A DNA stretch of 27,105 nt. Source: a virus. Location: positions 1-27,105 of IMG/VR virus record IMGVR_UViG_3300031707_000143. One strand, 5' to 3'. The notes below the pieces were generated by a model. The model had not been told where the DNA came from, searched no databases, and saw only the letters and a program-made list of their open reading frames with translations. The position numbers were made by a program, and so were the translations under genes. This document shows positions 1,876-21,328 of this stretch, piece after piece; the stretch's first letter is position 1; each line of letters begins with the position of its first letter.

Positions 1876-1910
1876 AAAGGAGAAAAATATAACTTCGGTT
1901 ATAGCTAATG
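1876..1910 (+). promoter_or_regulatory. Split ribosome binding site: SD, cUUCGg hairpin, AUG
   Basis: AAAGGAG (1876-1882) is the only SD for ATG 1908, but lies 25 nt away. Between them TATAAC (1888-1893), TTCG (1894-1897) and GTTATA (1898-1903) form a 6-bp stem closed by the extra-stable C(UUCG)G tetraloop. Folding out these 16 nt leaves exactly 9 nt between SD and AUG. The arrangement resembles the hairpin-containing initiation regions of phage T4 genes 25 and 38. Confidence 0.65.
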
Positions 1911-2183
1911 GAAATTGGATATCTAATTGGTTACCTGGGCATCTTTTTCGGCCTCTTTGTAGCACCCCAACAACTCATCAGACTTATCAAGCGTAAATCT
2001 TCAGAAGATATCTCAATCACTTCTTATCTTGCCCTTTGCCTTGCTATTGGCTGTTATTTAATCCATGCTATCTATATCAAGAGTGTGGTTTTTGTTATTG
2101 CCCAATCAATCAATATCACTTTCAATACTGCTATCTTTATTGTTTTGCTGAGGCATAAAAATGGACATTCCCGAGTATTTTGA
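1908..2183 (+). CDS. SemiSWEET / PQ-loop family membrane protein
   Basis: A 91-aa protein with three predicted membrane helices (about 5-27, 38-57, 60-81) and the PQ-loop signature APQQLIRLIKRKSSEDIS (19-36), in which P20-Q21 close helix 1 and the KxSSEDIS stretch leads into helix 2. Length and three-helix layout are those of bacterial SemiSWEET sugar transporters, which act as dimers. Helix 3 has Q66 and Asn residues (N69, N73) in the region where family members carry polar pore residues. An in-frame TAG at 1902 rules out an earlier start. It overlaps the next gene by 23 nt. Substrate is unknown, and a phage-encoded copy is unusual. Confidence 0.75.
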   Translation: MEIGYLIGYLGIFFGLFVAPQQLIRLIKRKSSEDISITSYLALCLAIGCYLIHAIYIKSVVFVIAQSINITFNTAIFIVLLRHKNGHSRVF

Positions 2184-2472
2184 AGATGCCTGCCGGATAG
2201 TGGCTGCAGAGTGTGTTGCTCTTCTTATTTCCAAACAAAAGGATTACGGCAAGGGCAATATTTTGGAGTTCGGTGAATTAGGTCTGCTGATCCGGGCCAA
2301 TGATAAGATGGCTAGATTAAAAAACCTACTTTCATCGCATGGTGAAACATCTCCAAAGAATGAAAGCATCGATGATACCTGGTGCGACTTGGCGAACTAT
2401 GCTATCATCGCCTTGATGGTTCGCCGCGATTGGTTCACATTGCCACTGAAGGAGGAAAAACATGGCGATTAA
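2161..2472 (+). CDS. DUF1599 / Nmad1-like protein (nucleotide-modification associated)
   Basis: A 103-aa helical protein with KQKDYGKGNI (25-34), an FGELGLLIRANDKMARL block (37-53) and IDDTWCDLANYAIIA (69-83). This arrangement (K-DYG, then R..DK..RL, then D...DLANYA) is that of the DUF1599 family, also named nucleotide modification associated domain 1, which is common in phages and distantly like MazG-type all-alpha NTP hydrolases. The acidic residues in the second and third blocks would be metal ligands if it is an NTPase-type fold. The start overlaps the SemiSWEET end, with a GAGG SD at 2150. Activity is not known from sequence. Confidence 0.7.
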   Translation: MDIPEYFEDACRIVAAECVALLISKQKDYGKGNILEFGELGLLIRANDKMARLKNLLSSHGETSPKNESIDDTWCDLANYAIIALMVRRDWFTLPLKEEKHGD

Positions 2473-3295
2473 GGCAGATATAAAGATTATTCATGCAGAT
2501 CTCAGTCAACATAAGTTTATCTATCTTTTACCTCTCAGCGATCTCCACTGGGATGAACCTCAATCAGACCATGATGCAATCAGGGGTTACGTGGACTGGA
2601 TATATAAACACAAGAATGCCTATACTCTACTTAATGGTGACCTTGTAACTGCACCGACCCCCGCCTCGGCAGCCTCTATTTATGAGATGGGGGAGCCAGG
2701 CGGGCCCATAGAATTTCCTTCTTTGGACCAATGTGCCGATGAACTTGAGGAATTGTTCAGACCCATTGCCGATAGGATACTTGCTTGTTGTTCGGGCGGG
2801 CATGAATTCAAACATTTATTCCGTGTCACTGGTTCCGACTGGACATATAACCTGATAAAGAAACTCGGCAGAGAAAAGTTCTATGCCAGGGATGGTGGTT
2901 TACTATTGATTAAGACGGCTCCGGCGATAAAAAATGACAATACCTTTTTCTCTGCTATATTTACTCATGGTTGGGGTGGCGCTAGGACTAGAGGGGCGAA
3001 GTTAAGAAAGGCAGAATATCTCGCTGAGGCCGTTGAAGCCGATATGGTTATTATTTCTCATGATCACACCCAGAATGTAACTAGAAGAAATACCCTATTT
3101 GTTCCTTCCTGGAGCAGTAAGGGGGTGGGAGTTCATAGGACTATGCTAATATCTACTGGCGCCTTCAGGGGCTATGCAGGTTATCCCCTTCGGAGCGGAT
3201 ACCAACCCTCTGACCTGGGGACTCCGCGCATAAGGATAGATAAAAGGATTGAAACTGATGGAACGGTGCGAAAAGATATTCACGCCAGCATTTAA
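2462..3295 (+). CDS. Calcineurin-like metallophosphoesterase
   Basis: A 277-aa protein with the metallophosphoesterase motifs in order: SDLHWD (26-31, D27 and H29), NGDLV (58-62, D60), GGHEF (112-116, standing in for GNHE, with His114), THGWGG (168-173) and SHDHTQ (199-204, the GHxH motif). These residues bind two metal ions in the family. Asn of the usual GNHE is replaced by Gly, which could alter catalysis. Substrates in phages include DNA or RNA ends and nucleotides; nothing here decides. The start overlaps the previous gene by 11 nt and follows a GGAGG SD at 2451-2455. Confidence 0.85.
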   Translation: MAIKADIKIIHADLSQHKFIYLLPLSDLHWDEPQSDHDAIRGYVDWIYKHKNAYTLLNGDLVTAPTPASAASIYEMGEPGGPIEFPSLDQCADELEELFRPIADRILACCSGGHEFKHLFRVTGSDWTYNLIKKLGREKFYARDGGLLLIKTAPAIKNDNTFFSAIFTHGWGGARTRGAKLRKAEYLAEAVEADMVIISHDHTQNVTRRNTLFVPSWSSKGVGVHRTMLISTGAFRGYAGYPLRSGYQPSDLGTPRIRIDKRIETDGTVRKDIHASI

Positions 3296-20776: not shown

Positions 20777-20827
20777 CTCTTAGAGGGGAAGGAGAAGTTT
20801 ACCCCTTCTTGCCTTCCCCTCTAGGGG
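20777..20827 (+). promoter_or_regulatory. Strong hairpin after capsid gene that can hide the next SD
   Basis: AGAGGGGAAGG (20782-20792) pairs perfectly with CCTTCCCCTCT (20812-20822), and AGAAG (20793-20797) with CTTCT (20805-20809), with a TG bulge. The stem can extend outward through 20777-20781 with 20823-20827 (two G-U pairs), burying the AGGGG of the AGGGGAG SD used by ATG 20837. No T-run follows, so termination is unlikely; lowering translation after the capsid gene or protecting its mRNA 3' end are likely roles. Confidence 0.6.
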
Positions 20828-20836
20828 AGAGAAAAT

Positions 20837-21328
20837 ATGGCTGGATGGATTGAGCAACCCGCCGAAGTCGGCGCTAACTATTATTTAGACCCGCACCGAG
20901 AGGCCGGAGAGGAAGTGTCGTCTACTTATGAGGGGCGGCATGTTTATGTCCAGGAAGTTGTACTTGTCCACGCTGGCTCAGGGCTGGTTGAAAAGGGGCA
21001 GCCAGTGGGCTTCTGGGAAGGCGTAGGCATAGCTCTGAAAACCGCAGAATCAACTTCAGAGAATATCCCCATCGACACTGAGGGGATATGGCGGGTATCG
21101 GTAGTAGCCGAAGCTGCGATAGTAATAGGGCAATCGGTTTTCATAAATAGCTCCGGTGTGGTTACTGACAATCCAGCTAATGCTATGGCTGTGTTTGGCT
21201 ATTCCTTACAAGCGATTACTGCCCCAGGCACAGAAGTCATAGCGGTTAAAGTCCACTGGATGAGCGTAAACTGGCTGTGGCTCTTCTGGTTTTTCATGCA
21301 ATATTCATGGTATGGAAATGGAGAATAA
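20837..21328 (+). CDS. DUF2190-like head protein (paralogue of the gene at 18265)
   Basis: A 163-aa protein with EVSSTYEGRHVYVQE, LVEKGQPVGF, GVGIALKTAES, PIDTEGIW and VIAVKVHW, aligned throughout with the N-terminal half of the 18265 gene. Instead of the extra domain it ends in an aromatic tail (NWLWLFWFFMQYSWYGNGE) that is hydrophobic and may insert in a capsid pocket or a membrane. The SD is AGGGGAG, which the preceding hairpin may occlude. Likely capsid decoration or vertex protein. Confidence 0.7.
   Translation: MAGWIEQPAEVGANYYLDPHREAGEEVSSTYEGRHVYVQEVVLVHAGSGLVEKGQPVGFWEGVGIALKTAESTSENIPIDTEGIWRVSVVAEAAIVIGQSVFINSSGVVTDNPANAMAVFGYSLQAITAPGTEVIAVKVHWMSVNWLWLFWFFMQYSWYGNGE

Follow-up and report, generated by a model that had tools for sequence, protein, structure and literature searches.

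The intercistronic region 1876-1910 of the IMG/VR record IMGVR_UViG_3300031707_000143 raises the question of how a ribosome could initiate on a gene whose only good Shine-Dalgarno (SD) sequence, AAAGGAG, lies 25 nt from the AUG. The stretch analysed here (the window) is this whole record of 27,105 nt, classed as viral; its terminase large subunit has matches among the PHROGs families and is ~40% identical to terminases of Bacteroides/Parabacteroides phages. The initial annotation had proposed that a 6-bp hairpin closed by a cUUCGg tetraloop occupies the gap and shortens it to 9 nt, by the mechanism known from phage T4 genes 25 and 38. This anatomy is exact in the sequence (Table 1) and, judging from predicted folding and from the analogy with T4, the region probably constitutes a functional, constitutive split ribosome-binding site like those of T4 genes 38 and 25. 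As such, it is an ordinary example of a device that is rare but already known, and involves no new mechanism.

Table 1. Coordinates of the features at the junction in the window
Feature	Position	Strand	Basis
Upstream small membrane-protein-like ORF, 87 aa	1608..1871	+	ORF list
Shine-Dalgarno AAAGGAG	1876..1882	+	direct reading of sequence
6-bp hairpin TATAAC-UUCG-GTTATA, cUUCGg tetraloop	1888..1903	+	predicted fold
SemiSWEET-like gene, 91 aa, start ATG 1908	1908..2183	+	Pfam, PDB profile, N-terminal alignment

The upstream ORF, which has no match in Pfam or PHROGs, ends with a TAA at 1869-1871, 4 nt 5' of the SD and 36 nt from AUG 1908. It overlaps, in a different frame, another ORF (1574-1798, 74 aa) for which no Pfam family match was found. 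The SD is followed by AAAAA (1883-1887), TATAAC (1888-1893), TTCG (1894-1897), GTTATA (1898-1903) and GCTA (1904-1907), the last of these directly preceding the ATG. The downstream product matches the Pfam families PQ-loop (9.8e-5, above the cut-off) and MtN3_slv (1.2e-4, just below the cut-off) and a PDB SemiSWEET profile (3e-7). By sequence it is SemiSWEET-like, as originally annotated, fitting the expected ~90 aa with a single PQ-loop/MtN3 domain.

Could the distance between SD and start codon be an artifact of gene calling? A TAG lies in frame at 1902-1904, upstream of the ATG, and no other ATG, GTG or TTG is found in frame among the first 20 codons that follow; ATG 1908 is therefore the sole possible start. 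The N-terminus of its product aligns with those of viral homologues, which begin at about the same residue. Moreover, no ATG, GTG or TTG occurs 3-15 nt 3' of AAAGGAG, and the 25-nt gap contains no second SD-like motif. Of the 46 starts listed for the record, 35 are preceded at 3-14 nt by an SD-like motif, and the start at 1908 is the only one of the other 11 with a strong SD farther off. The other AAGGAG-containing SDs at gene junctions stand, nearly all, 4-8 nt from their starts. The AAAGGAG at 1876 is anomalous even apart from the hairpin, being the only otherwise unexplained strong junction SD without a normally spaced start. An orphan SD at 20789 was considered as a second case and rejected, as it falls inside one arm of a longer inverted repeat and the gene at 20837 is preceded by an SD of its own, GGGGAG. 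The repeat itself (AGAGGGGAAGG...CCTTCCCCTCT; 20779-20823) is located upstream of gene 20837 and carries AAGGAG inside one arm.

The predicted energy of the hairpin alone is -3.4 kcal/mol with the current parameters (Turner 2004; z of -5.1 for the 20-mer), -6.6 kcal/mol with Turner 1999 and -5.9 kcal/mol with Andronescu 2007, while regions of 42 nt and longer are not unusually stable (z from -0.5 to +0.5). The hairpin is weak, with A-U in 5 of its 6 pairs and a single G-C pair. Embedded in 100-209 nt of sequence, it is predicted to be formed 25-74% of the time with the current parameters and nearly always with the other two sets; the sets differ chiefly in the cUUCGg bonus, and the span from 25-74% to nearly always is a fair expression of the uncertainty. 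With Turner 2004 the SD is 38-76% unpaired and the AUG 13-69% unpaired, depending on context length, the latter being partly paired with downstream sequence in the 100-209-nt contexts. Shuffled strands contain on average 0.003 cUUCGg stems of at least 6 bp, and the record has one, exactly in the SD-ATG gap; for an SD-stem-ATG arrangement with any tetraloop the corresponding frequency is 0.027 per strand. When the 25-nt spacer is shuffled, 2% of the permutations carry a bridging hairpin of -3 kcal/mol or better. All these figures are post hoc, the site having been chosen by eye.

The T4 precedent holds and is in fact closer than had been claimed. Our reading of the T4 sequence gives AAGGAG-AGGGGC(UUCG)GCCCUU-CUAAAU-AUG for gene 38, i.e. 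a cUUCGg-loop hairpin between SD and AUG as in the window, with a gap of 22 nt there and 25 nt here. The gene 38 hairpin is reported to reduce the spacing from 22 to 5 nt (PMC3014915), as compared with the 9 nt left in the window. On the other hand, the gene 38 stem is GC-rich, much more stable and placed directly after the SD, and the gene is a different one. At T4 gene 25 the same intercistronic order of SD, hairpin and AUG is found, with a gap that the hairpin brings from 27 to 11 nt (PMC3014915), very much as 25 nt would become 9 nt in the window; unlike the window, the gene 26-25 junction has GAGG within the upstream gene as its SD, and in the T4 sequence its 7-bp stem and AGUU loop both differ from those of gene 38 and of the window. 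Destabilisation of the hairpin decreases initiation in both T4 genes (PMC3014915). Our literature search found only these two as experimentally supported SD-hairpin-AUG sites. A more remote parallel is E. coli thrS, where the structure divides the standby region from the SD region, whereas in the window it sits between SD and AUG. The initiating ribosome at the split thrS site likewise spans a structured element (PMC3936740).

A site of the T4 kind is expected to have its only good SD at a distance from the AUG that rules out normal initiation, and a hairpin lying wholly within the gap and leaving ~5-11 nt. The window shows 25 nt and, in the predicted fold, a residual 9 nt. The 30S subunit would thus pair with AAAGGAG, the cUUCGg hairpin would fold the 25-nt gap so as to leave ~9 nt single-stranded from SD to AUG, and the shortened gap would let AUG 1908 reach the P site. 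We infer both that the hairpin remains folded once the ribosome is bound and that it is required for initiation. Since the upstream ORF stops at 1869-1871, a ribosome terminating there would cover the SD but probably not the hairpin, and coupling to translation of the upstream ORF is possible.

Viral sequences at large tell how common such a layout is. A scan for AAGGAG-N-CTTCGG-N-ATG returned a number of convincing sites in other viral genomes, among them a family of 92-aa HTH-like proteins whose stems differ in sequence but occupy the same place. Stems of at least 6 bp were found in 8 of 121 AAGGAG-CTTCGG-ATG occurrences vs 0 of 119 for a scrambled CTCTGG control. CTTCGG elsewhere in the scanned loci also makes such stems (3.1%), so that much of this excess reflects the use of UUCG as a general hairpin loop and not SD spacing. 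In a survey of 2.18 Mb of viral loci, from which the pattern-selected cases were removed and which was compared with shuffled and control sequences, bridging hairpins behind distant SDs were not in excess (3 seen vs 4.4 expected), albeit the survey is coarse because ORF starts were assigned mechanically. With no general excess, the device is rare, and each case has to be judged alone.

A GC-rich UUCG hairpin often precedes the start codon (position 601) in a set of viral loci (L126-L205) encoding ~92-aa HTH-like proteins. The SD stands before this hairpin in ~20 loci, after it in 2, and is absent in ~7. We considered whether this family proves that SD spacing is under selection and rejected the idea, as the hairpin persists without the SD; the family is, nevertheless, a good system for asking what junction hairpins do.

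Homologues of the SemiSWEET-like protein provided the most direct comparison. They are 40-50% identical and were found in six viral loci (five distinct), and the hairpin is absent from all five. By eye, the SD is AAGGAG 8 nt from the start in L327, GAGGAG 9 nt in L326, AAGG ~10 nt in L325 and AAAGGA 12 nt in L328, with no clear SD in L329/L330. The initial annotation had named homologues lacking the stem and having a normal SD as evidence against its reading; taken literally, this is what most of the five show. At such a distance, and with an upstream gene that they do not have in common with the window, they are weak evidence, the more so as distant T4 relatives also lack the gene 25 hairpin, which is conserved in close T-even phages (PMC3014915). 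Absence from distant homologues is in this respect a likeness to gene 25. Close relatives suitable for assessing covariation at 1888-1903 were not found among viral contigs (searched with the SemiSWEET, peptidase, phosphoesterase and exact DNA pattern), bacterial genomes or named phages, in searches that may leave out records very close to that of the window.

SemiSWEET-like genes are present on several viral contigs (the window, L325, L326, L327/L002, L328/L003 and L329/L330), and none was recovered from bacterial genome contigs at the settings used. Among the papers listed by a literature search, none was on phage SemiSWEETs to judge by its title. A gene for a calcineurin-like phosphoesterase lies beside or near SemiSWEET in the window (1908-3295), L325 and L329/L330 (by tblastn), and probably also in L002 (weak Pfam match), so a conserved gene pair is possible.

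The points against the split site are a weak hairpin, an AUG that is partly paired in the predicted folds, homologues without the stem, and the survey count; the last two also speak for its main rival. According to this rival, the hairpin is there by chance and the SD is unused, the start being served by reinitiation of ribosomes from the upstream ORF or by weak SD-independent initiation. The 11 listed starts without a nearby SD-like motif indicate that SD-independent or coupled starts are common in the window, no class-level excess of bridging hairpins was seen, and the SemiSWEET homologues manage without the stem. However, chance would leave an exact AAAGGAG without a start codon unexplained, and would have the only cUUCGg stem of at least 5 bp on either strand of the record fall exactly in the gap. 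We regard this explanation as unlikely, though as one to be taken seriously. It is improbable that the hairpin has mainly another role at the junction (protection or processing of the upstream mRNA end, or leaky termination), its position between SD and AUG being secondary. The HTH-like family, with hairpins that persist where the SD comes after them or is missing, makes roles beyond spacing possible; yet no terminator-like site was detected at 1400-2500, the hairpin has one G-C pair and no U-tract in place of a GC-rich stem with a U-run, and an Rfam search returned no family for it.

Regulation was part of the original proposal, as a thermosensor or a response to a protein or to ribosome stacking from the upstream gene. 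In principle, an SD-AUG hairpin could act as a switch that is on when folded, and the stem is A-U rich; transporter translation would then be turned off by heat, by a helicase or by an RNA-binding protein using the hairpin as an operator. The predictions argue against a heat-operated switch. The isolated spacer is predicted to be at least 98% folded at 37 C and 83-85% folded at 50 C, with a midpoint of ~57 C that disfavours a thermosensor in a mesophilic host, and Turner 1999 and Andronescu 2007 make the hairpin more stable still. An RNA thermometer would melt within the growth range to free SD or AUG; here the SD is outside the stem. Nothing pointed to a protein response or to ribosome stacking, and no conserved partner or second structure was found. 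Either form of the switch, whether heat-off or protein-bound, is thus very improbable, and the same holds for a conditional version of the split site as a whole.

Overall, the constitutive split ribosome-binding site is favoured by the sequence anatomy, by the predicted fold and by the fact that no alternative SD or start codon exists. By itself this site confirms a known principle, for which experimentally supported SD-hairpin-AUG sites are few. If the reading is true, an unrelated phage with the same tetraloop would point to independent origins of the layout, and the locus would serve as a warning for gene finders and for tools that score ribosome-binding sites by measuring spacing linearly.
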